From positions 20,633,027 through 20,697,026 of the forward strand of contig OY759221.1 in assembly GCA_963662175.1 (NCBI GenBank): a stretch of DNA of 64,000 nt. Direction: 5' to 3'. This document shows positions 5,450 to 59,847 of the stretch, piece after piece; positions within the stretch are counted from its first letter, which is position 1; the number at the start of each line of letters is the position of its first letter. Under the pieces are notes generated by a model that did no database searches, was not told the DNA's origin, and saw only the letters and a list, made by a program, of their open reading frames with translations. The translations under genes and the position numbers were made by a program. The stretch is from Aradus depressus. Its lineage: Eukaryota > Arthropoda > Insecta > Hemiptera > Aradidae.

Positions 5450-5774
5450 AAATATGAAGATGGCTGATGTAGTGAGAAGTGATTATTTCACAGGTTCTCA
5501 AATAAGATGTAGTCTGACCTCTCACAGATTTTTTATTTGTATTAGCTAGCCGGCTTTCGAGGTTGCCCTCATCATCATGCAGTCTGATAAATTTTATTAT
5601 AAACATTTTTGAATTTTTGTTACAAAAATATTTTAATTAGATTAATTTTTAAAAAAAAATCTACATATATATTTATCAGACTGCCTGATGATGAGGGTAA
5701 CCTCGAAAGCCGGCTAGCTAATACAAATAAAAAATCTGTGAGAGGTTAGCCTACACCTAATTTGACAACCTGTG
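5450..5774. mobile_element. Family-A inverted-hammerhead element, complete (325 bp)
   Basis: Fold-back element with near-complementary arms. The left end is 'atgaagatggctgatgtagt', then 'tgattatttcacaggtt', 'agtctgacctctcacag' and a reverse-strand hammerhead (5549-5582). The right arm repeats this in reverse. Precise 13-bp target duplications aactaataattgt lie at 5437-5449 and 5775-5787. There is no protein frame. By established knowledge, Penelope-like retroelements carry hammerheads in their terminal pseudo-LTRs, sometimes in inverted arrangement. This element may be a non-autonomous derivative or two joined termini. Confidence 0.8.
5685..5716 (+). ncRNA. Hammerhead ribozyme motif, family A (best copy)
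   Basis: CTGATGA at 5685-5691, then a single T, helix II GAGG/CCTC closed by a GTAA tetraloop, GAAA at 5705-5708, palindrome GCCGGC at 5709-5714, and cleavage dinucleotide UA at 5715-5716. The helix I base pairs GC upstream with GC downstream, and a CAGA/TCTG pair lies further out. Every catalytic-core nucleotide of the hammerhead consensus is present. Helix III can form only between two molecules because the palindrome has no loop. The opposite arm (5549-5582) has lost the first core C. Confidence 0.82.
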
Positions 5775-5861
5775 AACTAATAATTGTCGTTGTAATCAAT
5801 GTGTTTGACGCGAAATTTAGTATGAGGATTCACATACTCCCATTGTCCAAAAAGCGGAGTA

Positions 5862-5911
5862 GGTAGTAGGCGATATAAACTCGTAGTTTAAGCCCGGGCA
5901 TGAGTTATAAA
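5862..5911 (+). mobile_element. SINE 3' fragment
   Basis: Short remnant with 'ggtagtaggcgatata' and 'gcccgggcatgagtta', the SINE tail without CCTAA units. Confidence 0.7.
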
Positions 5912-6023
5912 CAACAACAATCTCATTCGTATTTTTATTTATGACCGTCCCGTTTTAGTATGTCTCAAAAATAAATTGTCTAAGGCCTCATGAATCCTAA
6001 GGACTAAATACCTAATGTAATTC

Positions 6024-6353
6024 GAGGGCGCCGGTAGCTCAGTGGTATGCATGCTTGCCTTCTGAGCTCAAGAACGAGGGTTCGAAACCCGACCGAGGCC
6101 CTTAGTTTATTTTATCTGGGAGGTAAAATAAACTTAAGCACGCCGTCCTTCGGATGGGACGTTAAGCGATGGTCCTGAGCCTGTACGATGTCAAGTACTC
6201 GTTAAAGACCTTAGGTGAATAAAAATTTAGGATAGGCAAAATTTATAACTCCCATAGTAGAGTCGGGCTCATGGCTCTCCACCAGAGTGACGAAAGAGCG
6301 CTCTGGTAGTACCTCGTAGTTAAAGCCCGGGCATGAGTCATAAAACCTAAACC
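6024..6353 (+). mobile_element. tRNA-derived SINE
   Basis: Head with box A (TAGCTCAGTGG) and box B (GGTTCGAAACC), central domain with 'gggacgttaagcgatggt' and 'tactcgttaaagacc', and tail 'aaaacctaaacc'. Target duplication taatgtaattc at 6013-6023 and 6354-6364. A few short internal deletions (the 'cctaccctaggtg' part and the tail 'ggcgatatg'). Confidence 0.9.
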
Positions 6354-6364
6354 TAATGTAATTC

Positions 6365-6860
6365 CGTAATTTCAATAAAAAAAAAAAATACATAGGATGA
6401 GAAATCGAAGCGAAAGTATTCACTTAACGATTTATAATAATCGTGACACTTTTTAAATACAGAACATTCCGTTCTAATTGCGAAATATAATTTCTTTGAA
6501 AGTAAATCGCTTGTTAGCCTTGACACACTAATGTAACTCATTATTATTGTAAATATTGTTTTTAGAATAACAAATATGTTATGGCGCATAAAGTTTTAAA
6601 AAACATTAAACTATTTTGACAAATTGGAAGTAAATGCTCTTACAATTAGTAATTTTAAGTAGGAATATTTTTGAATTTTTGCCTAAGATTTAACACTTTA
6701 TTTTTTTCAAAAAAACTGCGACCTGTTGTAAATTTTTATTATTTATTTTATTAGTTTATTTACAATCTAGACAATAGTAAATGTGTCATTTGACAAATAT
6801 GATAAAACTGTGTAAATAATAGGTCACGTGATGCGGGGATGCCACTCAGTTCTATTGTTT
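6365..6860. other. No gene seen
   Basis: AT-rich sequence without a recognised repeat. The short reverse frames lack coding character. Confidence 0.5.
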
Positions 6861-6862
6861 TC

Positions 6863-7424
6863 ACTTCCCCAGCTCTACGAAGTATAGAGGAAGTTATGTA
6901 ATTGGTAAAAAATTTAAAACTTTTCAAAAGGAATTTCATGTTTTCCGACCTCTAGAATGCAAATATGAAAAAAAGTCTGTGTGTCTGTGAACACGATACC
7001 TCCCGTTAGAATGAATGTATCCATACGAAATTTTATACATATTTGAATCTAGAACCCTCTAACGACATAAAGGCAACACTTGATAATTTTCGGCAGAAGA
7101 GAAGGGGACGATCGGAGGGGGCTCAACTCAAAACCGCAATAACTGCCAATGTAATGAATGTATCGACATGAAATTTCATATTTAAAGTCAAAACCCAGTG
7201 AGGGCATAACCTGTCGAATTTCAGCAATATCGGATGGAGGGATGGGGGGTTCAGGGGTCAGACTTAATTCAAAAACCTAATTACTGCCGATGTAATGAAT
7301 TTATCGACACAAAATTTAATATAAGGATTAAGGAGCCCTATGTAAGTCAACTGTTGAGTAATCATGCAAACGATTGACTGGTTTTGGAGCGAAAAGTTAA
7401 TTGATTAATTCCTTCTGGGGAAGT
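6863..7424 (+). repeat. R-A repeat, reference copy
   Basis: The longest continuous R-A copy. It opens with ACTTCCCCAGCTCTACGAAG and closes with CTGGGGAAGT, so the ends form a short imperfect inverted repeat. The interior holds three tandem, diverged modules of about 145 bp. Each contains a 'gaatgtatcgacacgaaatt' type core (around 7012, 7156 and 7301) followed by a 'cagccaaatcgg' type segment. No protein is encoded. Sequence beyond the closing motif ('cattgccggtgattcacc') is also shared between copies, so the true unit may be longer. Confidence 0.8.
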
Positions 7425-7664
7425 ACATTGATTGACTGATGACTTTTTGTTGTTCAAGAGTATTCTTCAGTTAGATGATACCGAGGCTATCTCCTCTTCA
7501 GAGGGCTTGGAGGATTGTTGAAGTTTAAAAGGGGTAGATTGTTTGAATAGGGCCTCGTAAAAACTTGACTTAGGCTCAGAATCCCAGATATGTTAACGCA
7601 CTCAACAAATTTACTTTAAGATTTTCATATCTAATAATATTAGATATTTCATGTATTCATTGTT
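7425..7664. other. Short spacer
   Basis: Nothing recognised apart from the R-A downstream flank at its left end and the SINE target duplication at its right end. Confidence 0.5.
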
Positions 7665-8006
7665 AGGTTAGGTTTTATGACTCATGCCCGGGCTTTAACT
7701 ACGAGGTCATATCGCCTACTACCAGAGCGCTCTTTCTTCACTCTGTTGGACATGAGCCCGACTCTACTGTGGGAATCCTAAATTTTGCCTAACCTAAATT
7801 TTTATTCACCTAGGGTAGGGGTCTTTAACGAGTACCTGACATCGTTCGGGCTCGGAACCATCGCTTAACGTACCATCCGAAGGACGGCGTGCTCAAGTTT
7901 ATTTTACCTCCCAGATAAAATAAAGTAAGGGCCTCGGTCGGGTTTCGAACTCTCGCTCTTGAGCTCAGAAGGCAAGCACGCATACCACTGAGCTACAGGC
8001 GCCCTC
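7665..8006 (-). mobile_element. tRNA-derived SINE, nearly full length
   Basis: Reverse-strand copy running from a TTAGG-type tail ('aggttaggttttatgactca') to the head 'gctacaggcgccctc'. Target duplication atgtattcattgtt at 7651-7664 and 8007-8020 (14 bp, identical). Confidence 0.93.
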
Positions 8007-8139
8007 ATGTATTCATTGTTGATCGAGAATGTTTAAAGAAGAATATTTTTATATATAAGTACATTATGGTGCTATACACAAAAGTTGAAAACATTCTGAA
8101 TAGAAAGGTAAACAATTCATTGACACTTAAGTAAGTCTT

Positions 8140-8262
8140 GTTAGAGACGAGGTTTGAGCCTCCTATCTGGTGTTGGTTCGCCCAACTTGTAGAACTGGGC
8201 TCCAGACACCAGGACGAGGTTGTCATGGTAGTCCCGGATCAGCTTGACGATGAAGGCCTCCA
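8140..8262 (-). CDS. GC-rich coding-like segment, unidentified
   Basis: On the - strand from ATG 8260-8262 the frame reads MEAFIVKLIRDYHDNLVLVS, then GAQFYKLGEPTPDRRLKPRL, then stop. Codons strongly favour C or G at position three (GCC, TTC, ATC, GTC, AAG, CTG), unlike all surrounding DNA. An in-frame TAA lies three codons upstream, so this could be the last exon of a gene, a short ORF or a pseudogene piece. The opposite strand is also open and ends in AG|GTGAGT at 8342-8349, a textbook 5' splice site, so a + strand exon is an alternative. I do not recognise the product. Confidence 0.35.
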
Positions 8263-9681: not shown

Positions 9682-9761
9682 AGAATTAAATACAAACAAT
9701 CTGGGTAGCAGAAAAGTTCCTTTTCTGACTCTCGTCCCTTTCGCCTTAACATCAATTTTAT

Positions 9762-9990
9762 GATGATTTTTCTTTTTTTTCCGGCATTTCTTCCAGAGGT
9801 GTCTTCTTTTTTCTCTTTTTATATAATATTTCGGGACACACGTCCCTTCTTCTGGTCACTATGAACGATCATCGTTCATGAGAAGGGACTCATGAAGAAG
9901 GGACGTATAAGTGTCCCGAAATATTGTCTAAAAAGGAAAAAAAGAAGACACCTCTGGAAGAAATGCCGGAAAAAAAAATCAACATCAACA
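9762..9990. repeat. Fold-back element, family F (hammerhead-like)
   Basis: Near-perfect inverted repeat with arms of about 100 bp ('ggcatttcttccagaggtgt' and its complement). Each arm has a GGGAC/GTCCC hairpin followed by GAAA, preceded by 'ccagaaga' (left arm, - strand) or 'atgaagaa' (right arm, + strand). A CTGAAGA-type core with one change per arm is therefore plausible. Unlike families A-E, there is no clear palindrome plus U-H after GAAA. A relative lies at 24735-24900. Confidence 0.6.
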
Positions 9991-10736
9991 GCCCAGAGAA
10001 GTTTAAGAAACACATCAATTTTATGTGTATTTCTGTATTGTCTGCAATTATCTGACCACATAAAAAATGTTTTCACGATAATATTAATGACTTTTCACAC
10101 TTCCAAAATATATACTATACCCAATGCATTTTCCAGAATTAAAAGCAAACAATCAGGAAAGCCCCCTTTTTTTTAAGCGTAAAATGTTCTAGTAATATGC
10201 TTGAAACTCAAATTAGATAATGCCATTATCTCAAAACTCTGAGAAACTTGTGGTTCCATAAATTAACAAAGTTTCGTACTCGTACCTTCGGAGTTGCAAT
10301 GCAAATACTCTTATTTTTTTCTCACATTTATAACATTTTATTATAATTAAATAGTGAGATCATATTGAATAGACGTTATTGTTCGCTACTCCAACATGAT
10401 CCAGTAGTGTCTGAAGGCTGCTCTCCCACGTCAGCCGACCAGCTTCTTCCTACATCTGGCCATTGTACTCACTCCTCAAGGTCTAGAGCTTCCATCCCTT
10501 CCGAGCATTCTTTTTGATTTCTCTTCCGATGGACGCCATGTTTGCTGTATATTCTCAAGCTCAAAATTAATCGTATCATAAAAAGAAGAAGAAATAAAAA
10601 TTATGTAGAATTATAATTTTTCATAGATTTAGTGAGACAATTTAAAAAAATATGTGATGCGGTAATTTCAGAACTTTATTTTACCAGCTACTTTTGTACA
10701 GATCACGCTCCGTTCCCCTGTGCTCTCTCAAATTAA
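9991..10736. other. Spacer with a possible LINE scrap
   Basis: 9996-10015 ('agcccagagaagtttaagaa') recurs near 39999 next to hammerhead family A. 10398-10545 is GC-richer and reads on the - strand as broken coding-like pieces (ASIGREIKKNARKGWKL, stop). It may be an old retroelement C terminus. Not assigned. Confidence 0.3.
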
Positions 10737-10744
10737 TTTCATAC

Positions 10745-11776
10745 TAGTGGTGTCAAACAATCGATAGTCGACCAAACTGTTAGCAAAAACTATCGATTAA
10801 TCGATAGTACTATCAAAGTTCTAAAACATGAATTTCTAACAAGAAAAGCAATAGCCGCTGTCGGGAAAAGAGGTTTCGTCCTAATCAGTATTATCAGTTC
10901 CTTTAACCTACTAGTTAATATATTTTATAATAGTTTTTATTTAAAAAAAAAAGTTTTTTTTGGGAAAAACAAGTTTTTTTAAAATGTATACTTCAGTTAC
11001 CAGTAAGTAAAATGAACAAGTACGTAAACCAAAAATCTAGACTAAAAAAAAGGTTATGTTAAAAATATCTATATTTTAATAACATTTAGCATCATTTGTG
11101 CTGTTTTAGGTTAGGTTTTATGACTAATGCCCGGGGTTTAACTACGAGGTCATATCGCCTACTACCAGAGCGCTCTTTCGTCACTCTGGTGGACATGAGC
11201 CCAACCCTACTGTGCGTGTCTTAAATTTTTATTCACCTAGGGTAGGGGTCTTTAACGAGTACCTGACATCGTACAGGCTCGGGACCATCGCTTAACGTCC
11301 CATCCGAAGGACGTCGTGCTTAAGTTTATTTTACCTCCCAGATAAAATAAACTAAGGGCCTCGGTCGGGTTACGAACCCACGTTCTTGACGTCAGAAGAC
11401 AAGCACGCGTACCACTGAGCTACCGGCGCCCTCTGTGCTGTTTTATTTAGGATCATGCTTATAGTAAGATGGAAAATTGATAAATTATTAACCTTATTCA
11501 CAAAGAATTTACAGTTCCTCCTTACAAGTCTAGTGCATGTCATGTTTTTGTCATCCGAGGAAAAAATAGTGAAACAAGTGTAAAAATTCAGTAAATTCAC
11601 CATAAAATGTAGAGAATATAGGTGAGAAATTGGAAAGTCCAAGACCGCTAATTTTAAATAACAATTTCAAATTCGATAGGACAATCGATATTATATATAA
11701 CTATCAATAAAATTCAAAGACCAACTTCAACCATACTTGGTATGTTATAGTAATACCGATATTTCACACACCACTA
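10745..11776. mobile_element. hAT-like non-autonomous element hosting a SINE
   Basis: The ends are inverted: TAGTGGTGTCAAACAATCGA at the left, and the right end reads as TAGTGGTGTGTGAAATATCG in reverse. The interior is rich in ATCGAT-type subterminal motifs. Putative 8-bp target duplication tttcatac (10737-10744) and tttcgaac (11777-11784), six of eight matching. An 8-bp duplication and (c/t)AGTGGTGT ends fit hAT. No transposase ORF. The SINE at 11109-11433 is inserted inside. Confidence 0.6.
11109..11433 (-). mobile_element. tRNA-derived SINE within the hAT-like element
   Basis: Reverse copy from 'ggttaggttttatgac' to 'gctaccggcgccctc'. Target duplication tgtgctgtttta at 11097-11108 and 11434-11445 (exact, 12 bp). 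Confidence 0.93.
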
Positions 11777-16739: not shown

Positions 16740-16935
16740 GTTTCATAAATCTGGAACGCTCCTATCCTCGCTAAAAAATTCCGACAGAACATTTTTTACA
16801 GGTTTTGACCTGTTTTTGTGTGCCCCAGTGTGTGGCTTGAAAATGGCTGGACTGTTTTTAAAGATTTTTTTTTCGGCATGTATCTCGCAAACCTGGCGTC
16901 CAGCGAAAAATCGTTTTCTACACTTTATTTGAAGA
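16740..16935 (+). repeat. RepC copy
   Basis: 'cggcatgtatctcgcaaacc', 'cagcgaaaaatcgttttcta' and the preceding 'tgtgtgccccagtgtgtggc' are RepC phrases. Interrupted by the family-B element. Confidence 0.7.
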
Positions 16936-17003
16936 TGAACTTGAAAGAAATAAAACTTGTTTATTTACGATATTGTTTAATTTCACCAACTATATTTACA
17001 TGG

Positions 17004-17033
17004 GAGTACTTTCGGTATTTCTACCATCCTCAG
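17004..17033 (-). ncRNA. Hammerhead ribozyme motif, family B (left arm)
   Basis: Reverse strand: CTGAGGA, T, helix II GGTA/TACC with GAAA tetraloop, GAAA, palindrome GTAC, U-C. Helix I begins TGG (upstream) with CCA (downstream). All core positions are intact. Confidence 0.82.
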
Positions 17034-17065
17034 CCAAAAGCAAGTCTTATCTCTTATGCTTTTGG

Positions 17066-17095
17066 CTGAGGATGGTAGAAATACCGAAAGTACTC
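17066..17095 (+). ncRNA. Hammerhead ribozyme motif, family B (right arm)
   Basis: CTGAGGA 17066-17072, helix II GGTA 17074-17077 and TACC 17082-17085 with a GAAA loop, GAAA 17086-17089, palindrome GTAC 17090-17093, U-C 17094-17095. Helix I pairs TGG with CCA. Intact core. Confidence 0.83.
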
Positions 17096-17218
17096 CCATG
17101 TAAATATAGTTGGTGAAGTTAGACAATATCATAAATAAACAAGTTTTATTTCTTTCAAGTTCATTTGAATTATTTCACAATATCTCTGCAATAATGTCAG
17201 TTTTCATTTATTTGAAGA

Positions 17219-19959: not shown

Positions 19960-20290
19960 GTTTAAACCTTCACTGATCTAACAGAAACTCAGATCAACAA
20001 AACATTGATCTGTAAAACTGAAATAAATTTTCATGAATTGGCTCCATTAAATATATTTTGAGTCTTTAATTTAGGAAATCCGTCCTTAAATGTTATTTGG
20101 ACAAACATGTTTTTATACTTTAAGTTGATTTACGCGAAAACGGTTAGTCCTATCGAAAAATTGGTTCATATAAAAAATGTTCCATATTAAATTTCAAATC
20201 GACTGTATCTCTTTGTTTTGAGATAGAACCAAAACGACTAAAGTTGTAGCGTCCCGAAAATTTATTAGACATTTCTACAAGAAATAGTTT
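19960..20290 (+). repeat. RepC copy, diverged
   Basis: 'tttacgcgaaaacggttagt', 'cctatcgaaaaattgg' and 'attaaatttcaaatcgactg' place it in RepC. Confidence 0.6.
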
Positions 20291-20299
20291 AAAAAAATA

Positions 20300-20625
20300 A
20301 AGTAAAAACGTATGTTTCTATATAAATGTAGTCTATTTCACAAAATATATATAGTATGGGAGTACTTTCGGTATTGCTGCTACCATCTTCAGGCACGACT
20401 TAACAATACTTTAAAAAATATTGTCTATTTCACAAAATATATATATAATATGGGAGTACTATCGGTATTGCTACCATCTTCAGACAGTATTTGTTAAGTG
20501 GTGCCTGAAGATGGTAGCAATACCGATAGTACTCCCATATTATATATATATTTTGTGAAATAGACAATATTTTTTTAAAAACTTTTATTTTTATTAAGTG
20601 TTTCACAATATCTCTGCAAAAAAAG
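20300..20625. mobile_element. Family-B hammerhead elements, clustered and partly fused
   Basis: Two adjacent pieces. The first has a single left arm with an intact core (20360-20392). The second is a full palindrome (about 20418-20580) whose two arms both read GATA instead of GAAA. Outer sequences 'gtatgtttctatata' and 'acttttatttttatta' recur at 30365-30555. Confidence 0.7.
20360..20392 (-). ncRNA. Hammerhead ribozyme motif, family B
   Basis: Reverse strand: CTGAAGA, T, helix II GGTA/TACC with a seven-base GCAGCAA loop, GAAA, palindrome GTAC, U-C. Core intact. The loop is expanded relative to its neighbours' GCAA. Confidence 0.75.
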
Positions 20626-20644: not shown

Positions 20645-20880
20645 AAATGAAAACTGACATTCATTATTGCAGAGATATTGTGAAATAATTCAAATGAACT
20701 TGAATGAAATAAAACTCGTTTATTTGTGGTATTGTCTAATTTCTACCATCCTCACAAAAGTAGAGTCTTATCTCTTATACTTTTGTGAGGATGGTAGAAA
20801 TACCGAAAGTATTCCCGTGTATATATATTTTGTGAAATTAGACAATACCACAAATAAACTAGTTTTATTTCATTCAAGTT
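20645..20880. mobile_element. Family-B hammerhead element, arm-deleted
   Basis: Starts 'aaaactgacattcattattg', the reverse of the end of the 271-bp element, and finishes 'tttcattcaagttcaaatag'. The left arm lost the 'ggagtactttcggta' block, so only the right arm retains GAAA, and its palindrome is 'gtat'. Probable direct repeats tcaaatatttt/tcaaatagttt flank it. Confidence 0.65.
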
Positions 20881-20899
20881 CAAATAGTTTGAAGTTATG

Positions 20900-23044: not shown

Positions 23045-23215
23045 TAAATTATGTTATTTTCAACATTATTTTATCTGCCTGATGATGAAGCCAACCTCGA
23101 AAGCCGGCTAGCAAAAATTAATAAAATCTGTGAAAAGTCAGATTATATTTTATTTTACAACCTGTGAAATAATCACTCTCATTATATCAGCCATCTGTAT
23201 ATTAAACAACTAAAT
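23045..23215 (+). mobile_element. Family-A hammerhead element, right arm only
   Basis: CTGATGA 23079-23085, GAAA 23099-23102, palindrome GCCGGC and UA are intact, but helix II is weakened (GAAG against CCTC). It ends 'gaaataatcactctcattat' and 'atcagccatctgtat', the family-A right terminus. The left arm is missing. Confidence 0.65.
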
Positions 23216-23775
23216 TGTCTCTCCCCCTTCCAAAACCAGTCGCCTTTTTGTGCTAATATTCAACAGTTTGAGGGCGCCGGTAGCTCAGTGGTATGCGTGC
23301 TTGCCTTCTGAGCTCAAGTTCGTGGGTTTGAAAATCCGACCGTGGCCCTTAGTTTATTTTATCTGGGAGGCCGTCCTTGTACTCGTTAAAGACCACTGCC
23401 CTAGGTGAATAAAAATTTAGGATAGGCAAAATTTTCCCACAGTAGAGCGGAGCTCATGTCCACCAGAGTGAGGAAAGAGCGTTCTGGTAGTAGGCGATAT
23501 GTCCTCGTAGTTAAAGCCCGGGCATGAGTCATACAACCTAACCTAACCTATTCAATAGTTGACTTACATAGGGGCTTCTAAATCCTCATAAATTTTGTGT
23601 TGATAAATTCATTTCATCGGCAGTTTTTGGGATTTAATAGAATAAATAGTAGTATTTTAGAAGTAAAAAAGGTTGTCGGTGAATCTCCGCCAGTGTACTT
23701 CCCCAGCATGAATTAATCAACTAAGTTTTTGCTCTCCCTCTAACAACAATCGACCATTTTGGCTGGAAGTCAGTA
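23216..23775 (-). repeat. R-A copy split by a SINE
   Basis: 'cttccaaaaccagtcgcct', 'gctaatattcaaca' then, after the SINE, 'ttcaatagttgacttacata' and 'gataaattcatttcatcggc'. Another reverse R-A end (23650-23770) with 'gtacttccccagcatgaatt' follows. Confidence 0.75.
23272..23548 (+). mobile_element. SINE with internal deletion
   Basis: Head and boxes present, box B 'ggtttgaaaatccg'. The segment between 'tctgggagg' and 'ccgtcctt', and the first half of the central domain, are deleted. Tail has CCTAA units. Imperfect duplication attcaacagtt/attcaatagtt. Confidence 0.85.
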
Positions 23776-23784
23776 TGTGGTAGT

Positions 23785-23905
23785 ATGATGTTGTGGGACG
23801 AGATTTCTCATCTAGCTGTTAAAAGACAATTAGCCAGTTACTCTGTGGCAGAGATGTACCACTGATGATGATGAACAGTGGGAAGATGTCTTTCATTTCT
23901 ATGAA
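23785..23905. mobile_element. Family-D hammerhead remnant
   Basis: 'gatgttgtgggacgagattt' matches the flank of the family-D motif at 57540. 'gtaccactgatgatgatga' at 23856 keeps ACCA plus CTGATGA on the + strand. The GAAA side is lost. Confidence 0.5.
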
Positions 23906-24397
23906 AAATAGTTCAGTTAAATCGACGGGTTGGCGTGAGATTTTCTACTCGTTAAGCGCGGCCCTGTATATCAGTTATTATAAGCCATAAAATAATTAAT
24001 CGGATTTGTTGATACAGTGGTGTGATTATGAATAACAACAAATCGTACTGGGAGTATGGAGATAATCAAATTTATTTTGTTTTGCTTATGTTTGATTAGA
24101 TTAAAAGCAGAGTATATATACTATACGAGATAATATTATGTTACGATAACAAAAAACAGAGATTGATAAAATAATCTTTTTTTTAAATGTTTATTTACAA
24201 AAGTTCCTACAACATAAGGTAGCATTGATGACTCGGAAATAGTGGCGGATCTATGGGATGGAATGTAAAGAGCGTTAAATGTAGGAATCATAAAGAGGTC
24301 ACTCTCAGGTTGGATCTTAGTCTGTCATATAGGATAGCAGACCCCAGAAGGACGAAAAGTTTTCAAAACATGTTATTGACAAACATATAGGTACAGA
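23906..24397. other. No gene seen
   Basis: Unique AT-rich sequence, no supported feature. Confidence 0.4.
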
Positions 24398-24540: not shown

Positions 24541-24720
24541 CAGCAAAAAATCTTATTCAATATAAAATGAGTCTTTCCATTTTTTCTACAACTTTTATAT
24601 AACGAGATTTTTGAATAAGTCATAAATATAAGAGTATAAATATAATAATCTTCCAAAAAATTCATAGCTACAATCAATCGTATCTGAGTTAGTCGCTTCA
24701 CATAGTATGGGTTTCTTAAG
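24541..24720 (+). repeat. RepC fragment
   Basis: 'ccagcaaaaaatcttattca', 'atgagtctttccattttttc' and 'tacaacttttatataacgag'. Diverged. Confidence 0.55.
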
Positions 24721-24734
24721 CTTCTCTGGGATGT

Positions 24735-24900
24735 TGATTTTTTCCTACATTTTTTTCCAGAGGTGTCTTCGTTTTTCCTTTCTTTGTCCCTAAAGGTTCA
24801 TAGTGACAAGAAGAAGGGACGTTAAAGTGTCCCGAAATATTGTCAAAAAAGAAAAAAGAAGACTCCTCTGTAAAAAAATGCCGGAAAAAATCAACATATA
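24735..24900. repeat. Fold-back element, family F, second copy
   Basis: Relative of 9762-9990: 'tccagaggtgtcttcg' and the reversed 'gaagactcctctgtaaaa' arms, with a + strand GGGAC...GTCCC hairpin then GAAA. The left arm lost the hairpin. Preceded by 'aagaaga', a core changed at two sites. Confidence 0.55.
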
Positions 24901-28204: not shown

Positions 28205-28215
28205 TTATTTAATTA

Positions 28216-28635
28216 TAAGATAGTCTGACCTCTCACAGATTTTTATTGGTAATAATAGCTAGCCGGCTTTCGAGATTTCCCTCATCATCAGGCAGTCTGA
28301 TAAAAATTAAAAATTTTGAATAGAACTAAATAATATAATAAAAATAAATAAATAACAATCTAAAACATTAACAATTTAAAATATCATGGATGGGGACAGA
28401 CGAGTTATTCCTGTCCACTATCTGAGTCACAACAGAGTTGTGTTATTTATTTATTTTTATTATATTATTTAGTTCTATTCAAAATTTTTAATTTTTTATC
28501 AGACTGCCTGATTATGAGGGAAACCTCGAAAGCCGGCTAGCTATTATTACCAATAAAAATCTGTGAGAGGTCAGACTATCTTATATTTGACATCCTGTGA
28601 AATAATCACTTCTCACTACATCAACCATCTTCATA
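28216..28635. mobile_element. Family-A inverted-hammerhead element, 420 bp
   Basis: Target duplication ttatttaatta (28205-28215 and 28636-28646). The left arm is truncated at 'taagatagtctgacc'. The right end is complete with 'aaccatcttcatat'. The interior has 'tttaaaatatcatggatggg' and 'gacagacgagttattcctg', shared with 35844-36110. Arms are complementary over about 90 bp, with a second inverted stretch 'tgttatttatttatttttat'. Confidence 0.82.
28260..28291 (-). ncRNA. Hammerhead ribozyme motif, family A
   Basis: Reverse strand: CTGATGA (28291-28285), helix II GAGG/TCTC with one G-U pair and GAAA loop, GAAA (28271-28268), palindrome GCCGGC, U-A. Core intact. The opposite arm at 28508 reads CTGATTA, a core-destroying change. 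Confidence 0.78.
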
Positions 28636-28689
28636 TTATTTAATTAATTTGCACTGGGGAAGTATATTGATTCTCCGACGACATTTTTC

Positions 28690-32565: not shown

Positions 32566-32593
32566 TACCGGTTTCGGCTTACGCCATCGTGAG
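32566..32593 (-). ncRNA. Hammerhead motif, family C, left arm (one core change)
   Basis: Reverse strand: CTCACGA (expected CTGACGA), T, helix II GGC/GCC with GTAA loop, GAAA, palindrome CCGG, U-A. Helix I TGTG/CACA pairs perfectly. Confidence 0.65.
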
Positions 32594-32621: not shown

Positions 32622-32649
32622 ATGACGATGGCGTAAGCCGAAACCGGTA
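32622..32649 (+). ncRNA. Hammerhead motif, family C, right arm (one core change)
   Basis: ATGACGA (expected CTGACGA) 32622-32628, helix II GGC/GCC with GTAA loop, GAAA 32640-32643, CCGG 32644-32647, U-A 32648-32649. The two arms together give the consensus core CTGACGA. Confidence 0.65.
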
Positions 32650-35640: not shown

Positions 35641-35899
35641 ATAGGTTTGTTTTACTTCTTCAGCTATACAAAGTTTTCAACAAAATTTCTTGTTTTCCGA
35701 ACTTTTGATTCAAAAATGAAAAAAAAATGTCTGTCTGTCTGTGTGTCTGTGAAGACGATAACCCTCAATAGAATAAATTTATTGACACAAAATCTTATAT
35801 GTGTATCCAGGACGTATCTAAGGACAACACCTTAAGATTTTCAATAATATGAAGATGGCTGATGTAGTGAGAAATCTTCAGATTTTTATTTGTATTAGC

Positions 35900-35931
35900 T
35901 AGCCGGCTTTCGAGGTTGCCCTCATCATCAG
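35900..35931 (-). ncRNA. Hammerhead ribozyme motif, family A
   Basis: Reverse strand: CTGATGA (35931-35925), T, helix II GAGG/CCTC with GCAA loop, GAAA (35911-35908), palindrome GCCGGC (35907-35902), U-A. Complete core and perfect helix II. Confidence 0.82.
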
Positions 35932-36749
35932 ACAGTCTGATAAAATAAAAATTGTTGACATTTGAATGAAGATTAGAATATTTTAGTAATATTATATTAA
36001 AATAAATAAAACCATCTAAAAACTTTAACAATTTAAAATTTCATGGATGGGGACAGATAAGTTATTTCTGTCCCCCAACTGAGTTGTTACAAATTATTTT
36101 CAGGCATAGAATGCCTGATTATAAAGGCAACCTCGAAAGCCGGCTAGCTAATACAGTAGAACCTCTTTAAGTCGAACCTCGATAAGTCGAAAACCTCCAA
36201 AACTCGAAAAAAAGTTTTGTTCCTTTCCCTTCAAGCCCCAAAACCTCCATTACTCGAAATCTCAACCCTTTATTAGTCGAAATAATCAGTGAGTCCCTAC
36301 AAGCCATTTTGGTACATATTTTGCCTCTATAACTCGAAAAAATAAATTGGACCTCTGTATCTCGAACATAGCAATGTTTTATTTTACAACCTTTACAACT
36401 CGATTATTTGAAACTTATTACCTCTATAGCTCGAAGAAAAATAAGTTACCGACTTAAAGAATTAGCCGACAATGTACACCATTATTTCTTAGAAAACAAT
36501 TTAGGAGTATACAATAAATAGGATTACCAATTCTAAGAAATGATAAAGGATATTATTGTTGATTTCATTTGAACTTTAGCGAAGCAAGTCATTTTGTGTC
36601 GATTGAAAAATTGTCATAAGTAGTAGAATTTTCTGCTCTTTATAGCTTAGACAATGCTATAGATAGAGAACAACCGAATTATCTAAAGCAAAAAAAAATT
36701 TCTGACTTTTTAATACCTACATATATGTACTATGTATTTTTTATTTTAA

Positions 36750-37705
36750 CCCTGGAACCACGACGTGACATAGTTATTGGCAATTTAACAACTTGGGGTC
36801 ATATATGACCCCATACAATATTTAGTCATATTTTTTTAATTTTCTATTTAATCCACTATTTTTGCCATTTTTGATGACTAACATTCATAATCTATGTATA
36901 ATGAAAAATAAAAAATTAAATGTAAGATGGGGGATTAAGGAATAAATCATCGTAATACTATAAACTAAGGTATAGGTATGTTAATATATATATGTATTTG
37001 TTCCTTGAATAGCAACATTATATAAAAAGTTTTCCCATTCATTATATTTTCCTAATAATGCTAGAATCAAAAAAACATAAAGTAATTGATATGAAAAAAT
37101 GAATTTAAAAAAATATAGCATATTGAAAACGTGGATAGATAGATAAGTGAACTGAAAAAAAAATGTATTCATTTGAACAATTTACACACATACTTTGTCT
37201 GTGTTCAGCACATAAACTCTTAAAACGCTTCGATCACAATCACTGCATCTTCCGGGACGTTTACCCGTTGGAGATGGGATTGGTTGAGGTGGCGGGCTCC
37301 GTAGAACCTCCCTTATTAGTCTTCTTAAATCCTTTGGAAGATGTGGATTGTCTAATCTTCTTTTCATGTGGGCTTCAACCAAACCTTCTCCCAGTTCTTT
37401 CAAAAAGTTTGTTCTCGATAATTTCATCCCATTGTGCCGAAAAATGACGTAGGAATTTATGCCAATTGCATCCTAACATCCCATAAAAATTCCTCATACA
37501 CTACAACGTGGGGTCGCCCGTGACCCAAAGGCACTGTAAATGTTTCCTAAGTGAGGGCTGAAAGCAGACTGACACTCTGTTGTGATCATCTTGCCAGGAC
37601 AGGAAGGTACAAGATCGGACATGTCTAACTGCAGGAGTGTAATGGAAGTAAACAATATTTTCAGAACTCCAGGGTCAGGGGTGACCCCACGTTGTGATTC
37701 CAGGG
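36750..37705. mobile_element. piggyBac-like element, internally deleted, TTAA target
   Basis: TTAA at 36746-36749 and 37706-37709. Ends CCCTGGAACCACGACGTGAC and, in inverse, CCCTGGAATCACAACGTGG. The motif 'ggggtc(N)tgacccc' occurs near both ends and near 37510 as a subterminal repeat. Length is 956 bp, against more than 2 kb for autonomous members, so most of the transposase gene is lost. Confidence 0.85.
37182..37472 (-). pseudogene. piggyBac transposase C-terminal remnant
   Basis: Reverse frame: DAIGINSYVIFRHNG (37472-37428) then MKLSRTNFLKELGEGLVEAH, MKRRLDNPHLPKDLRRLIRE, a proline-rich linker and GRCSDCDR. The 'D.a..NsyviyR' block followed by 'FL.eLg..Lv..hm..R' and the first pair of a cysteine-rich (PHD/cross-brace-like) domain match the end of piggyBac transposases. 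A TAG lies just upstream and a stop follows only eleven residues beyond the second Cys pair region, so the zinc domain is truncated and the catalytic core is absent. Confidence 0.75.
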
Positions 37706-38215
37706 TTAAGGATGTTTTGAAATAATGTTGATTTATAATAAATATAAATATGTTTGTTACTTCTGTAACTTGAATTTTTATTTATTTCACCTCTCTAACT
37801 CACAATTAGTTAGAATGAATCTTAACCTCTACAAGTCGAATCAAAATCCGCCTAAGTCGCAATCCTCCATAAGTCGAAAACTCTATAACTCGAATTTTTT
37901 GGCGTCTCTCTTGATGTTCGACTTATAGAGGTTCTACTGTAGAAATAAAAATCTGTGAGAGGTCAGACTACATCTTATTTGACAACCTGTAAAGATTTTC
38001 AGACAAATTGACATTAGGGAAGGGGAGGATTAGAAGGAGGCTTAACTCTAATAACTGCCATGGTATGCCAAGAATGGCACCTATTAATTTTCTGAGTAAT
38101 TGGTCGAAGGCAAGGAGGGAGGATAGCAGAGAAGAGGGTCTCAACGAATACGCTTTGGAGGAAGAGCGAAAAAGAAATGGATTAATTTTTGCCAGGGAAT
38201 TACATATAATTTTTT

Positions 38216-39939: not shown

Positions 39940-40195
39940 TAACTCACAGGTTGTAAAATAAAATATAGTGATGCCGGAAACAACCAACAGTGGAACATCC
40001 CAGAGAAGTTTAAGAAACACATAAAACATTTTAATTATGTTATTTTCAAAATTATTTTATCAGAATGCCTGATGATGTGGGCAACCTCGAAAGCCGGCTA
40101 GCAAATATAAATAAAATCTGTGAGAGGTCAGACTATATTTTATTTTACAACCTGTGAAATAATCACTTTTCACTACATCAGCCGTCTCTTCATAG
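39940..40195 (+). mobile_element. Family-A hammerhead element, partial
   Basis: 'aactcacaggttgtaaaata' (left-end piece), then a right arm with CTGATGA 40069-40075, GAAA 40089-40092, GCCGGC, U-A, and terminus 'cactacatcagccgtctctt'. Helix II has one mismatch (GTGG/CCTC). Confidence 0.65.
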
Positions 40196-40964: not shown

Positions 40965-41345
40965 GTTTTGAAAGAGAAAGAGAAAAAAGTGTCTTTAAAA
41001 CACTCAAATCTTTTCTCCTTTCTAGAAGTAGAGAGAGATGTCTTAAAGAGAGGTTTTAAAGCGTCTTAAATAGAGGAAGGGGAGAAAAGAAAGAGAGAGG
41101 ACTTTGTAAATGAGCAAGAGAGCAAGGTAAAGAGATGATCGTTAGGGATGGTATGGTAAAAGAGTCATTTGGACAAAAGATAAAGATAAGAGAGAGAAAG
41201 AGGTGTCAGAGTGAAAGAGAATGAGAGAGGGGAGTGTCTTAAAGACAGTATGGTTAAGAGAGGTTTTAAAGCGTCTTAAAGAGAGAAAGAGAGGGGAGGG
41301 AAGAGACAGAGAGGTTTCAAAAAGGATAAAATCAGAGAGATAATG
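40965..41345. repeat. Purine-rich low-complexity tract with internal repeats
   Basis: Long GA-rich tract. 'agagaggttttaaagcgtct' plus 'taaa' occurs twice (41049 and 41257), so part of it arose by local duplication. No coding potential. Confidence 0.8.
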
Positions 41346-41384
41346 AGGTCGCCTATAAGTTCATTCTACATTAGTAAAATAGGC

Positions 41385-41665
41385 AGCACTTGGGCCAGAA
41401 AGACATAAACAGCTTCTCTAGCACAAATCATCGGCCTTGTGCTGGAGAAGCTGTTTATGTCTTTCTGACCCAACTGCCGCCTATCCTACCTATATAGCAT
41501 GAAGTTCTAGGCACCTTAATTTTCAGTAGGATAGCCGGCAGTTGGACACGACAGACATATACAACCTCTCCAGCACAAAGCCAGTGATTTGTGCTGGGGA
41601 AGTACAAAACCAGTGATTTTGTGCTGGAGAGGTTGTCCATGTCTTTCTGACCCAACTGCCTCCTA
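41385..41665. repeat. Pair of long hairpins with shared motif
   Basis: First hairpin: 'gggccagaaagacataaaca' plus 'gcttctctagcacaa' folds on 'ttgtgctggagaagctgttt' plus 'atgtctttctgaccca' (arms about 36 bp). Second: 'acctctccagcacaaa' folds on 'gtgctggagaggttgtccat', with an extra internal copy. The two halves are direct duplicates ('gtctttctgacccaactgcc' ends both). No hammerhead core found. Confidence 0.75.
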
Positions 41666-42117
41666 TACTACTTATATTACATATATTTATTATATTAGAA
41701 CATGGTTGAACTACGGAAACCTTCCATGTGTGTTATGATGAGACTTCTCTGTAATATTTGTTTTCTACTTTTTTTTTTTTTTCGTTACTCATTAAGTACT
41801 TTAGTAGATAGCCTCCTACTCAGTTCGTGATTCTTGTACCATAATATGCTAACGTGACAAAGTACGAGAGCCGCTAACCTTGGAAAGTGACAACTCATTT
41901 GAAAAGGGGCTTCAGAGCTCACATCCAAACTTTTCACTAGTCCTTGAGTTTAATTCATCTTCATCAGTTTGCTCAATTATTCTCCGTTCTTTTTGAACCT
42001 GGGTCTGTATGGCTCAACCTTGTCATTTATTCACGACTAGCAGGTTATCAAGTGTTGCCAGGGAGTAACTTTACCTGAAGCTGATTAAGTGCGATATCTG
42101 GTCGAAAATAAAAAAGC
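41666..42117. other. No gene seen
   Basis: Unique sequence with nothing supported. Confidence 0.4.
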
Positions 42118-44322: not shown

Positions 44323-44624
44323 GTGAATATATCGACATGAAATTTTATATGTGTATCCAGAATCCCATACGACAATACCAATTTATTTTCAGGCAAATCA
44401 GTCAATGCCCAGAGAGGGATCGGGGTGAGGGAGGCTTAATTCAAAATATTTAATAATGAATATCGATATGAAAATTTTATATTTAAATTTAAAATCCTAT
44501 AAGGACATAACTTATAAAGAAGGAGGGGGCCGAGATAATAATAACTGCCGATGTAATGAATGTATCGACACAAAATTTTGTATGAGGAATAAGAAGCCCC
44601 TATGAAAATTAACTATAGATGAAC

Positions 44625-44830
44625 AGGAAAAAGGAATATACACACACTAAAGGAATATAAACTCCAAACACTACTTGTCAATATTTTCACTATATTGATC
44701 AAAATTACACGACTATAGTTTCGCCTGTTACGGCATCATCAAGTGAACTAAACAGAGATTACTACTGAACTGTTCAGAAGCATTTTGACAAGTAGTGTGT
44801 GGAGTGTATATTCCTTTATCCTGTTCATTA
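44625..44830. mobile_element. Family-E hammerhead fold-back element
   Basis: Outer arms 'gaacaggaaaaaggaatata' plus 'ctccaaacactacttgtca' and their inverse 'tgacaagtagtgtgtggagt' plus 'gtatattcctttatcctgtt' enclose a single reverse-strand hammerhead. Confidence 0.7.
44711..44742 (-). ncRNA. Hammerhead motif, family E (one core change)
   Basis: Reverse strand: TTGATGA (expected CTGATGA), T, helix II GCC/GGC with a six-base loop, GAAA, palindrome CTATAG, U-C. Helix I CAC/GTG. The palindrome sequence is entirely different from families A-D, yet its self-complementarity is kept. Confidence 0.68.
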
Positions 44831-45129
44831 TGAATTTTCACAAAGTAGACCTGGAATCAGTTCAATACTTAACTGTATATTTTTATAATATAAACAGTCG
44901 ATTGATTTTGGATGGAGATCAAGATCTTAATTGAATGATTCGTCCTGGGGAAGGACATTCCTGGTGATTTCAGCCACTTGTACACTAAACACCGAGTGAC
45001 CATTATGAACCGGTTTATTTGGATCAGTTTACGAACAGAGTAAACATTTTGACACCCCAGACCTTGGAGCCTCTGGGTGACCTACAAAGTACAAAGGGCT
45101 TTCCGTTATTGGCTCAGGACTGAGACCAA

Positions 45130-45265
45130 AATTACATTCCTTGTTTCATCTTCCCATTGTATTATTTTTCTCTAGAACTCGTTTTGAACAAAACTGCGTC
45201 ATCATCAGTGGTACATCACTAAACTGGTGATGATGACACACTTGAATAACTGGTTCTTGTGAAAA
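45130..45265. mobile_element. Family-D hammerhead remnant
   Basis: Reverse strand 'gtaccactgatgatgacgca' then 'gttttgttcaaaacgagttc': CTGATGA kept, GAAA changed to CAAAA. A forward partner 'ctggtgatgatgacacactt' follows at 45213, so both arms are represented. Confidence 0.55.
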
Positions 45266-56934: not shown

Positions 56935-57090
56935 GTTTAAAAAAACTGTTTTTCGTGAATCACCGATAATGCACATCCCTATCACAAATTAATCAACTAA
57001 GCTTCCGTTCGCAAAAGAAATTTGTGGAATGGGGGGGTTGAAAAGCATGAAATACTGATGAAATTTCAACATGACTTGTATGTATATGTG
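56935..57090 (-). repeat. R-A fragments
   Basis: 'cgtgaatcaccgataatgca', 'aaattaatcaactaagcttc' and 'catgaaatactgatgaaatt'. Confidence 0.6.
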
Positions 57091-57345
57091 CATCACTTTC
57101 CTCATCCTTGGTGTAGTGAGGAAGTAAAAAGGAAAAACAAAACTATAATTTTATTCTGACGTTAGTTTGTTTTTTTAATTTTATTTTCAATACAGGAAAT
57201 TCGAAGAACATTTCCTCTTCTCATAAGAAACCCAAGAAGGAACGTTGCATTTTAATCAACAAACAAACCTACGTGAGACACAATTAAACAAAGATTTATT
57301 TTGATAACTAATCACTCTCATCGAGTCGTTCGTGACAAATTGTAG
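57091..57345. other. No gene seen
   Basis: Nothing supported. Confidence 0.4.
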
Positions 57346-57535
57346 CAATGTATAGGGGAAGTTATGCAAAGATTAACTAGAAAGTCTTCAGTGAATCACT
57401 TGCTATGTACTTCCCCAGCACAAATTAATCAATTACGTTTTCGCTCTCCCTCCAAAGCCAATCGACAGTTTGGGCTAACACTCAATATTTGACTTATAGT
57501 AGAGTCTTATGAATCCTCATACATATGTGATAGTA
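57346..57535 (-). repeat. R-A fragments
   Basis: 'tataggggaagttatg' on the + strand, then reverse 'cttcagtgaatcacttgcta', 'gtacttccccagcacaaatt' and 'ccaatcgacagtttgggcta'. Confidence 0.65.
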
Positions 57536-57610
57536 AGATGTTGTGGGACGAGACCAGAACCGGTTTTCGACACAACGGCGTCATCATCAGTGGTTCATCT
57601 ATGATAGAAT
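57536..57610 (-). mobile_element. Family-D hammerhead element, single arm
   Basis: 'gatgttgtgggacgagacca' leads into an intact reverse-strand hammerhead. No second arm follows. Related scraps occur at 23785 and 45130. Confidence 0.65.
57557..57590 (-). ncRNA. Hammerhead ribozyme motif, family D
   Basis: Reverse strand: CTGATGA (57590-57584), T, helix II GAC/GTC with a longer loop, GAAA (57568-57565), palindrome ACCGGT (57564-57559), U-C (57558-57557). Helix I ACCA/TGGT pairs perfectly. Complete core. Confidence 0.75.
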
Positions 57611-57905
57611 AATAAAATATTCTAATAATGAAAAGTATAAATAACTCTTAAAATATCAGGGTACAGAGTAACAAGATAAAAATTATAAACTTACCCCACC
57701 CACACAGCACAGCGGTTAAAGGACAACTAGCATAGCTCTAAGGGGTAGGGATAGCTAGGTTCACTCACTCTCTCTACATGCAAAACCATTTATTCTAATA
57801 TAAGTCTCTACATAATAGTAACATAATATAAAAAGGAATTTTTTTGGTTGTCATAAAATATATTAGATAAAATAAAATAAAAATAAATTATATATTAATA
57901 AATAA
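57611..57905. other. No gene seen
   Basis: AT-rich unique sequence. Confidence 0.4.
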
Positions 57906-57910
57906 ATACA

Positions 57911-58140
57911 AGAGAGTAGCTCAGTGGTTTGCGTGCTTGTCTTCTGAGCTCAAGATCGTGGGTTCGAAACCTAATGGAGGCCCTTAGTTTATTTTATCTG
58001 GGAGGTAAAATAAACTTAGGCACGCCGTCCTTCGGATGGGACGTTAAGCGATGGTCCCGAGCCTGTACAATGTCAGGTATTCGTTAAAGACCCTAGGTGA
58101 ATAAAAATTTTGGGTAGACTCCCACAGTAGAGTCGGGCTC
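57911..58140 (+). mobile_element. SINE, truncated at both ends
   Basis: Starts at 'gagtagctcagtggtttgcg' (short head), box B 'gggttcgaaacctaatg', central domain, ends 'cacagtagagtcgggctc'. Confidence 0.87.
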
Positions 58141-58204
58141 CTTTATGGAGGATTTCATGTTCATATCTTTTTTTCTTCTCACTTCTTTATATACTTCTTC
58201 TCTC

Positions 58205-58440
58205 TTCCCTGCCGCTATTGGATTTCAGCCAAATCGACCACAGAAAATACTGGGGGGAACCAGAGGAGTGAAAGGAACTGTCAACTCAAAAAATCTAATA
58301 ATTTTCAATGTTATGAATGCATCGACATTAAATTTCATATTAAAATTGAAAACCGCTGATCATCTTTAGATTTATAGCATTTATTTCATTAGAAGTAATT
58401 TGAGTTGAGGAAGTACAATATCGGTGATTATCCGAAGACT
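58205..58440 (+). repeat. R-A copy, 3' half
   Basis: 'ggatttcagccaaatcgacc', 'atgttatgaatgcatcgaca' and closing 'gttgaggaagtacaatatcg'. Confidence 0.7.
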
Positions 58441-58796
58441 TTTTTTTAAGTTTAATCCTCATCCGAGACAATTAACCCCCGAGGATGTGAATAATTTGTA
58501 AAATGTCTTCTATAAGAAGACATTTAACAAATTATTATAAGAAGATCATTAGCAGAAGAGTTGCAAGAAGCGACCTTCAAAGTATAACAATTATAGTGGT
58601 ACGTACGTTACAAGAGAATGTGGCGGCCTCCATCTTGTTTTAACACAATATTACTTCCACAGATAGTAGTCTAACGAAAAATGATGTAATCTGTCACAAT
58701 TCGATGTTGATTTTTCAACGGAATCAAAAAATGCCAGAGAGTGAAAACGTATTTGAGGAGGAATTTCAAGTTCTGACGTTTGCTTCTTAGTTAGTT
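58441..58796. other. Spacer, short hairpin
   Basis: 'tgtcttctataagaagacat' region (58500-58545) forms a small palindrome. An R-A start scrap lies at 58685-58725. No gene. Confidence 0.45.
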
Positions 58797-59090
58797 AGTT
58801 AGGTCATATCGCCTACTATAAGAGCGCTATTTCGTCACTCTGGTTGGCAAGAGCCTAACTCTACTATGGGGGGAGTCCTAAATTTTGCCTACATTTTTAT
58901 TCACCTAGGTTAGGGTTAACGAGCACCTGACATCGTACAGGCTTGGGACCATCGCTTAACGGCCCATCCGAAGGACGGCGTGCTTAAGTTTATTTGACCT
59001 CCCAGATAAAATAAACTAAGGACCTCGGTCGGGTTTGCAACTCACGTTCTTGAGCTCAGAAGGCAAGCACGCATACCACTGAGCTACCTC
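58797..59090 (-). mobile_element. SINE, slightly truncated
   Basis: 'aggtcatatcgcctactata' to 'accactgagctacctctc'. Missing the terminal tail and the gcgcc head. Central domain intact. Confidence 0.87.
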
Positions 59091-59552
59091 TCAATTAATA
59101 TTATGTTTTATATACTTTTATTCCCCCCATCTGGCGTAGAAATATGAATTAAACTAAAAATAAAAACCCAGGATTTTTTCATAGTTCAATCTTCTGTATA
59201 TTTTGGTTATGTAATAGCATATATGTATAAATAGATTGTAGAGTAAATATATAAAAACGGGGATATGTACAAAATGATTGATATCTGTAGCCTAAAATAA
59301 ACAATCTGTGCCCTAGTCAACTCCATCATGGGTTCCTCACCCAAAGTTAGTATACAGTATTTGCTTAATAAAAATAAATAAAACACTTTACTATTCCTTT
59401 TTATTATTATTTTTATTATTATTTTATTATTATTATTATTATTTTATTATTTTTTTTACTATACCCCCAGCATGGACAAATTAAAATCTCATTATTTGTA
59501 TTTAAATTTTCTTCGTAAGGTATTCAGAACTATAAGCAAAGAATATACAAGT
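59091..59552. other. Spacer with (TTA)n tract
   Basis: Simple TTATTA repeats at 59401-59450. No gene. Confidence 0.5.
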
Positions 59553-59631
59553 AAATGTTCAGTAGAACTTGAAAGAAATAAAACTTGTTTATTTATGATA
59601 TTGTCTAATTTCACTAACTATATTTACATGG

Positions 59632-59661
59632 GAGTACTTTCGGTATTTCTACCATCCTCAG
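59632..59661 (-). ncRNA. Hammerhead ribozyme motif, family B (left arm)
   Basis: Reverse strand: CTGAGGA, T, GGTA/TACC with GAAA loop, GAAA, palindrome GTAC, U-C. Helix I TGG/CCA. Intact. Confidence 0.83.
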
Positions 59662-59695
59662 CCAAAAGCATAAGAGTTAAGACTCATGCTTTTGG

Positions 59696-59725
59696 CTGAG
59701 GACGGTAGAAATACCGAAAGTACTC
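59696..59725 (+). ncRNA. Hammerhead ribozyme motif, family B (right arm)
   Basis: CTGAGGA 59696-59702, then C instead of the usual T, helix II GGTA/TACC, GAAA 59716-59719, GTAC 59720-59723, U-C. The core is intact apart from that linker base. Confidence 0.8.
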
Positions 59726-59847
59726 CCATGTAAATATAGTTGGTGAAATTAGACAATATCATAAATAAACAAGTTTTATTTCTTTCAAGTTCATTTGAAT
59801 TATTTCACAATATCTCTGCAATAATGTCAGTTTTCAAATGTTCAGTA

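Follow-up and report, generated by a model that had tools for sequence, protein, structure and literature searches.

Hammerhead motifs with a palindromic helix III in head-to-head insertions of Aradus depressus and their link to Penelope-like elements

This work deals with short hammerhead ribozyme motifs, and the inverted-repeat insertions that carry them, in a 64-kb stretch of the genome of the hemipteran Aradus depressus (contig OY759221.1, positions 20,633,027 to 20,697,026, hereafter the window, with positions counted from its first letter). The window has a G+C content of 32-38% per 4-kb block and is part of a 698-Mb genome in 74 contigs. An earlier note, made from the letters of the window alone, had described five hammerhead families (A to E) that all place a perfect palindrome in helix III, and had linked them to Penelope-like elements (PLEs) and to cleavage as a dimer. 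Our reading, to which we give a probability of a little over three in four, is that these are the minimal type I hammerheads of PLEs, lying mostly in short, dead, head-to-head insertions, each made of two separately primed complementary DNAs (cDNAs) that became joined.

Hammerhead motifs and their carriers in the window

The motifs were searched for with a strict pattern (core CTGANGA, a paired helix II, GAAA, a palindrome of 4-8 nucleotides (nt), and U-H) and with a relaxed one that permits one core mismatch. As a chance control we used 200 dinucleotide shuffles of the window, and the search was repeated in the adjoining 200 kb. All five families were re-found in the window. The strict pattern gave nine sites (families A, B, and D), eight of them with a helix I of at least 2 bp, and none in the 200 shuffles (mean 0.0); the relaxed pattern gave 14 sites (families A to E) against a shuffle mean of 0.03 and a maximum of 1. 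All motifs belong to hammerhead type I and have a loop-less helix III; C3-A9, G12-A14, and U16.1-H17 are present together with helices I and II, the cores of families C and E being one base off in the window. Helix I (2-3 bp in family A) was found at 12 of the 14 relaxed sites; in a family B motif at 20392 (-), no helix I pair adjoins the core.

Short inverted repeats make up 5.2% of the window and hold 13 of the 14 relaxed motifs and eight of the nine insertions. The order antisense hammerhead, loop, sense hammerhead is found in the elements A5, A28, A35, B17, B59, B20, and C32, while B20i and E44 retain a single hammerhead. An extra unpaired tail occurs at one outer end only, with a length of 39-52 nt in A5, A28, B17, and B59.

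Among the family A elements, A5 (5450-5774, minus strand) has its tail end at 5450 and is flanked by the target-site duplication (TSD) AACTAATAATTGT (5437-5449 and 5775-5787). Its tail arm holds a hammerhead at 5547-5578 (-) with the core ATGATGA, one base off, and its non-tail arm an intact one at 5685-5716 (+) with GCCGGC as helix III. A28 (28216-28635, +; TSD TTATTTAATTA, 28205-28215 and 28636-28646) carries an intact core in the non-tail arm (28260-28291, -) and CTGATTA, also one base off, in the tail arm (28508-28539, +). The third element, A35 (35844-37991, -; TSD AAGATTTTCA, 35834-35843 and 37992-38001), has an intact hammerhead at 35900-35931 (-) and an internal deletion on the tail side, and a DNA transposon of ~1.8 kb (about 36156-37940), with inverted ends CAGTAGAACCTCT(T/A)TAAGTCG and an apparent TA target, interrupts its right arm. 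Two more family A motifs keep core, GAAA, and palindrome next to an imperfect helix II. One, at 23079-23110 (+), belongs to a 5'-truncated copy for which no inverted partner was found, and the other, at 40069-40100 (+), to a copy whose left arm is interrupted by a family F fragment.

In family B, helix III reads GTAC. B17 (16936-17206, +; TSD TTTATTTGAAGA, 16924-16935 and 17207-17218) has one hammerhead in the non-tail arm (17004-17033, -) and one in the tail arm (17066-17095, +), and B59 (59565-59835, +; TSD AAATGTTCAGTA, 59553-59564 and 59836-59847) has its pair at 59632-59661 (-) and 59696-59725 (+). The older palindrome B20 (20290-20625, +), with an additional antisense hammerhead at 20360-20392, and B20i (20650-20882, -), with a left tail and a lost tail-arm hammerhead, have approximate ends and no clean TSD. 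C32 (32476-32737, +) is the head-to-head element of family C, with hammerheads at 32566-32593 (-) and 32622-32649 (+). The E hammerhead (44711-44742, -; core TTGATGA, helix III CTATAG) lies between the arms of an inverted repeat at 44603-44840, and the D hammerhead (57557-57590, -; helix III ACCGGT) has no inverted partner in the window.

All or part of the region downstream of the D hammerhead (57381-57522) is present again at no fewer than 15 places of the window, possibly as truncated D copies. This region also matches one stretch of two stacked long hairpins without a hammerhead at 41339-41672. Decayed relatives of D are found at 45120-45260 and 23660-23920, the first as head-to-head partial hammerheads that have lost the palindrome.

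A palindromic element of the same build, F9 (9763-10011, +), has a one-sided tail, the TSD ACATCAATTTTATG (9749-9762 and 10012-10025), and an open frame across arm and tail; its hammerhead-like core is degenerate. A second family F palindrome of this build, F24, lies at about 24710-24897.

In total, 19 window regions were searched for TSDs. Duplications of at least 10 bp (10-14 bp) were found for A5, A28, A35, B17, B59, and F9, and no convincing one for B20, B20i, C32, D57, E44, A23, A40, F24, and five other fragments. By comparison, 10 bp is reached by about 2% of random pairs from the window; this is only a rough guide, since the TSDs had also served to refine the element ends. This architecture of inverted repeat, tail, and TSD is the new part of the analysis and was absent from the reading in the earlier note. 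In the literature searched, in which subscription journals are thinly covered, we came across no account of head-to-head PLE insertions that carry hammerheads.

The palindrome itself was assessed at sites selected without it. Core, helix II, and GAAA alone give 10 window sites, nine of which have the palindrome. In the adjoining 200 kb it is present at 13 of 15 strict cores, at 11 of them with at least 4 nt and at two with only 2 nt (four GTAC, three GCCGGC, two ACCGGT, two CCGG, and two CG); the two CCGG copies of family C have an intact CTGACGA core there. The remaining two sites are one degenerate B and one outside any family. The hammerhead observation is thus real and repeats in fresh sequence. 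That the palindrome is kept throughout every family is too strong, as decayed copies without it exist (GTCGGT near 3.5 kb and ACGAGT near 45.2 kb). The hammerhead pair at 20.4-20.5 kb reads GAUA.

Apart from these five families, a sixth one with the helix III A-CG-U was seen at positions 81363 and 102248 of the joined loci L049-L068. Both copies have an inverted partner, and one lies in a ~370-nt palindrome.

Motif columns are better conserved than the flanks. Across four arms of family A, motif columns reach 0.92 and flanks 0.79, a contrast that was as large in 18 of 2000 permutations; for four arms of family B, the values are 0.92 and 0.69 (1 of 2000), and in six-arm sets that include truncated copies the contrast was reached in none of 2000. 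Moreover, an ATG lies at the junction of core and stem II in the representative copy of each family (five of five), 22-28 nt before the cut; the tail arm of B59 has ACG at this place.

The covariance search that had been proposed as a check was negative. The Rfam hammerhead models gave no match at the gathering threshold and none at E values up to 10, in the whole window and in three short stretches, which is taken to be due to models that expect a closed helix III. Some microRNA matches below the Rfam cut-off coincide with long hairpins and were set aside. The B pattern had no match in a viral sequence collection, and the A pattern none in a prokaryote collection.

Family A as a Penelope-like element

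Family A is abundant: allowing for at most two mismatches, its motif has at least 5,724 genomic copies, 2,842 of them forward and 2,882 reverse. No copy was found in the genome when the pattern was reversed. We studied 40 of these loci (L009-L048), all from one genome and one contig (C1), with coordinates given relative to the reference copy L028, where 0 is the first base of the core. Half of them (L009-L028, n = 20) were picked for a minus/plus pair of exact motifs, spaced by no more than 0.8 kb in 19 loci and by 1.4 kb in one, and the other half (L029-L048, n = 20) are the first listed places without an exact minus/plus partner.

The reference copy reveals the coding sequence. Its sense arm continues upstream into an open reading frame (ORF) of 405 amino acids, and the hammerhead core begins about 143 nt past the stop codon of this frame. 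The ORF scores 30.1 bits with the reverse transcriptase (RT) model RVT_1 (Pfam cut-off 29.6) and 30.3 bits with GIY-YIG (cut-off 22.6), the latter C-terminally at residues 283-359. In L033, 251 amino acids of the same frame are found at 99% identity. The last 21 codons of the ORF are present in the loops of two window elements, namely A28 (28371-28433, -; 95% identity to L028 by tblastn) and A35 (36028-36090, -; 76%). An RT and a GIY-YIG domain in a single ORF is the canonical description of a PLE (PMC11167929). Family A is a Penelope-like element, and its copies are thus 5'-truncated PLE insertions. The known PLE build of a pseudo-long terminal repeat (pLTR) with an inverted copy, an optional tail, and a short TSD is also found in family A. 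The Penelope link suggested earlier is hence borne out for this family.

For families B to E, a PLE origin is suggested by the motif and the position of the ATG, and for B also by tail and TSD. With the A protein as query, tblastn matched four places in the window and the adjoining 200 kb, none of them inside a B to E element. A Pfam search of 10 of the 59 listed window ORFs gave nothing above cut-off. An RT fragment at 46.4 kb has three unnamed proteins as homologues, and the RT-endonuclease fragment had no match among solved structures.

The position of the hammerhead agrees with what is described for PAc, a Poseidon PLE of Anolis carolinensis, where the motif overlaps the start codon at stem II and cuts 26 nt downstream of it (PMC11167929). 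Minimal type I PLE hammerheads without helix III nucleotides have been published as well, and cleavage as a dimer has been proposed for them (Cervera and de la Pena 2014 and Lunse 2017, as cited in PMC7761336). As far as visible in that source, our cases, which are predicted from sequence, differ in host and sequence families.

Two other kinds of element could be considered. Animal non-LTR retrozymes share type I hammerheads and short repeats with our families, and dimer action has been described in axolotl, with one case of a palindromic tetraloop (PMC7229834). In retrozymes, however, units of about 300 bp follow each other as direct tandem repeats, whereas all 19 close family A pairs (less than 1 kb apart, among the exact matches listed on C1) are minus-then-plus, that is, head-to-head.

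The second kind would be miniature inverted-repeat transposable elements (MITEs) derived from a DNA transposon whose terminal inverted repeats are long (e.g., Mutator-like), with an incidental likeness to hammerheads. Short palindromes with duplications of about 10 bp would suit such elements. Yet such elements end in inverted repeats on either side and have a TSD of constant length. Here, the two outer ends do not mirror each other, as the tail is one-sided, and the duplication varies from 10 to 15 bp. The hammerhead motif is far above chance, and the attached RT and GIY-YIG coding already contradicts a MITE in the case of family A, so we regard this explanation as highly improbable. For annotators this means that short hammerhead palindromes with a one-sided tail may be truncated PLEs, rather than MITEs or independent ribozyme genes.

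Insertion ends and a candidate mechanism

Of the 40 loci, 26 score as head-to-head; L010 and L013 have both hammerheads there, yet the clustering script did not score them as such. A TSD of at least 10 bp flanks 19 of the 26 copies (11-15 bp, 75% A+T). The downstream ends of the 66 arms fall into two classes, with 28 at +86 to +102 (N), 30 at +127 to +134 (T), and eight elsewhere. For the pairing count, N was set at 60-114 and T at 115 or more, and three head-to-head copies with one end outside both classes (L025, L042, and L047) were excluded. The 23 copies with both ends scorable comprise 22 T/N, no T/T, and one N/N (L017), and a count of at least 22 T/N has P = 2.7e-6 if the ends are independent. 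In two of the 22 (L027 and L046), the N end is at +111, outside the main N group. The window elements A28, A5, B17, and B59 have T ends at 122-135 nt and N ends at 70-92 nt from the ATG, and the tail side of the deleted copy A35 is at 82 nt.

At the other side, the arms of one copy mostly differ. Their upstream reach is unequal (by more than 5 nt) in 19 of the 22 T/N copies, the T arm being longer in 13 and the N arm in six, with three equal within 5 nt. Examples are -1335/-74 in L028 (where -1335 is the cut point of the reference), -182/-543 in L021, and -210/-4 in L016. The family A loop is PLE ORF sequence and is attached to the longer-running arm. A loop of the rolling-hairpin type ("flip-flop") was dropped for family A, since the loop sequence is reached by one arm only. 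Upstream ends cluster near -210 (23 of 66 at -214 to -195, 17 of those at -212 to -207), which is probably the 5' end of the RNA. The base before -210, in the 18 ends filed as non-read-through, is C in nine, G in seven, and A and T in one each, with one of the nine C cases (L009) being a read-through copy misfiled by the script; read-through copies have C. The G as a possible trace of the cap is suggestive at best.

From these ends we infer the following order of events. A sense RNA would consist of upstream sequence, the hammerhead, and about 130 nt downstream. The PLE protein would cut both strands of an AT-rich target about 10-15 bp apart, and on either side of the cut the 3' end would prime a separate cDNA, starting at a site inside the RNA. 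One cDNA would start at T and leave the tail, and the other at N, which is 16-45 nt nearer to the hammerhead in the sampled copies. Each would run back through the hammerhead and stop independently, often near one point (the probable RNA 5' end), and the two would then be joined where they stop, giving antisense arm, loop, sense arm, and tail inside a TSD. If two primed cDNAs are joined, the arms should match, just one end should carry a tail, a TSD should be present, and the loop should consist of the stretch by which one cDNA outran the other.

Related structures have been described before. In Adineta vaga, Pen2a and its relatives have an inverted pLTR beside a direct one, head-to-head, with a 31-bp tail at one pLTR and a 9-bp TSD, and the inverted pLTR of Pen2a is shorter by 37 bp (PMC3846280). 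That paper, whose main text does not contain the word hammerhead, attributes the palindromes to self-priming. In our sample, by contrast, a head-to-head build is seen in 26 of 40 copies, many of which lack the ORF, and two end classes could be counted. For PAc, reverse transcription starts internally, 111-118 nt into the ORF, two adjacent start sites define the tail, and both target strands are cut and extended (PMC11167929). PAc differs in being described as tandem copies, and in vitro its start sites do not differ between the strands, whereas T and N are combined in 22 of our 23 copies. The PAc assay therefore does not explain the T/N rule.

The published self-priming, in which the 3' end of a cDNA or antisense template folds onto its own strand and is extended along it into a palindrome (PMC3846280), likewise yields the like arms that are observed. 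Self-priming through the whole arm predicts two tails, though, which are seen in none of the 23 scorable copies, and it does not predict the unequal upstream reach. We therefore think it unlikely.

Much the same holds for non-autonomous palindromes, where a palindromic RNA would be copied whole at each jump, like a short interspersed nuclear element (SINE), with gene conversion keeping the arms alike. Short non-autonomous Penelope elements have been reported in butterflies (PMC6685494), B17, B59, and B20i have one short loop in common, and both arms end near -210 in L018 and L026. A palindromic master predicts equal reach, however, which the 19 unequal copies do not fit; a single master cannot yield the arm reaches of L028, L021, and L016, and the family A loop is ORF sequence on the longer-running arm. 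As a general explanation a master is as improbable as self-priming. Family B in itself may be a real palindromic non-autonomous element, in view of its common loop.

Returning to the joining of two primed cDNAs, the arms within an element share derived bases in most comparisons (9 v 0 v 0 for A5/A28, 11 v 0 v 0 for B20 vs B17, and 10 v 0 v 1 for B20 vs B59). Several observations weigh against this reading. B17 vs B59 shows no arm changes shared within an element (0 v 0 v 1), and a palindromic master copied whole would transmit a one-sided tail just as well. By the same test, 14 of the 40 family A copies are not head-to-head, and none of these 14 has a TSD of at least 10 bp. In the window just 6 of the 19 regions have such a TSD, and inverted partners are lacking for D as well as for 5 of 13 motif matches in the adjoining 200 kb. 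The RT/GIY-YIG coding was found for family A alone, and in vitro the start site of PAc is equal between strands (PMC11167929).

A bolder version is that PLE retrotransposition is obligatorily two-ended and asymmetric, always with one T and one N end and with independently truncated cDNAs joined head-to-head. We consider this about an even bet. If true, the commonest product would be a pair of cDNAs of the mRNA leader, and it would be for this reason that hammerhead palindromes fill this genome. Head-to-head pLTRs and tails of PLEs have been described, with the mechanism of insertion unsettled (PMC3846280 and PMC11167929). The elements are of a known PLE/hammerhead kind, to which we add a sharper rule for the pairing of ends. 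As there are thousands of family A motif copies, with clear ends in the sampled ones, the model of two start sites and two cDNAs can be counted directly.

Dimer folding and other repeats in the window

Helix III is not closed within one strand; the palindrome closes only as a dimer. Since the A15.1-U16.1 pair lengthens each palindrome, helix III of the dimer has 6-8 bp. The hammerhead would most likely work as such a dimer, in multimeric source transcripts. In folding calculations, the specified dimer lies 0.4-3.0 kcal/mol above the minimum free energy (MFE) of the dimer for five of six sequences, namely A(5685), B, C, D, and E. The exception is A(40069), where the dimer fails and helix II is weak. 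Set against two monomer MFEs, the specified dimer is better by 4-7 kcal/mol for A(5685), D, and E. For B there is no gain (-13.6 for the dimer and -13.6 for two monomers), and for C a gain of 0.5 (-22.5 vs -22.0), both of which count against cleavage as a dimer. The earlier suggestion of dimeric cleavage is plausible and not contradicted by the present data. A dimer-type ribozyme would not be new, as it is already published for loop-less PLE hammerheads.

The predicted RNA folds of B59, B17, A28, A5, and C32 are long hairpins that bury the hammerhead. With the motif predicted to be locked against its own antisense arm, cleavage, if relevant, would matter in other transcripts. All fetched copies retain sequence upstream of the cut, but this says nothing on RNA cleavage or on the use of cleaved RNA, as the motif used to select them extends across the cut.

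It is possible, if doubtful, that the palindrome is kept for another reason, such as a binding site for the PLE protein, and that the hammerhead plays a minor part. Insertion in vitro by PAc persists when the hammerhead is mutated, cleavage requires the protein, and no reads starting or ending at the cut site were found (PMC11167929); the B dimer without energy gain fits this as well. On the other hand, core, helix II, and palindrome are jointly conserved above the flanks, and the sequence of the palindrome differs between families while self-complementarity is kept.

Two further repeats were noticed in the window. A 28-bp tandem repeat spans 61657-62796, with 40.7 copies and 89% matches. A dispersed repeat of ~240 bp is found at 57916-58140 and about 20 other places, with 72-93% identity, and is probably a tRNA-derived SINE, as its copy at 11197-11423 overlaps a tRNA-Gln call at 11356-11429.

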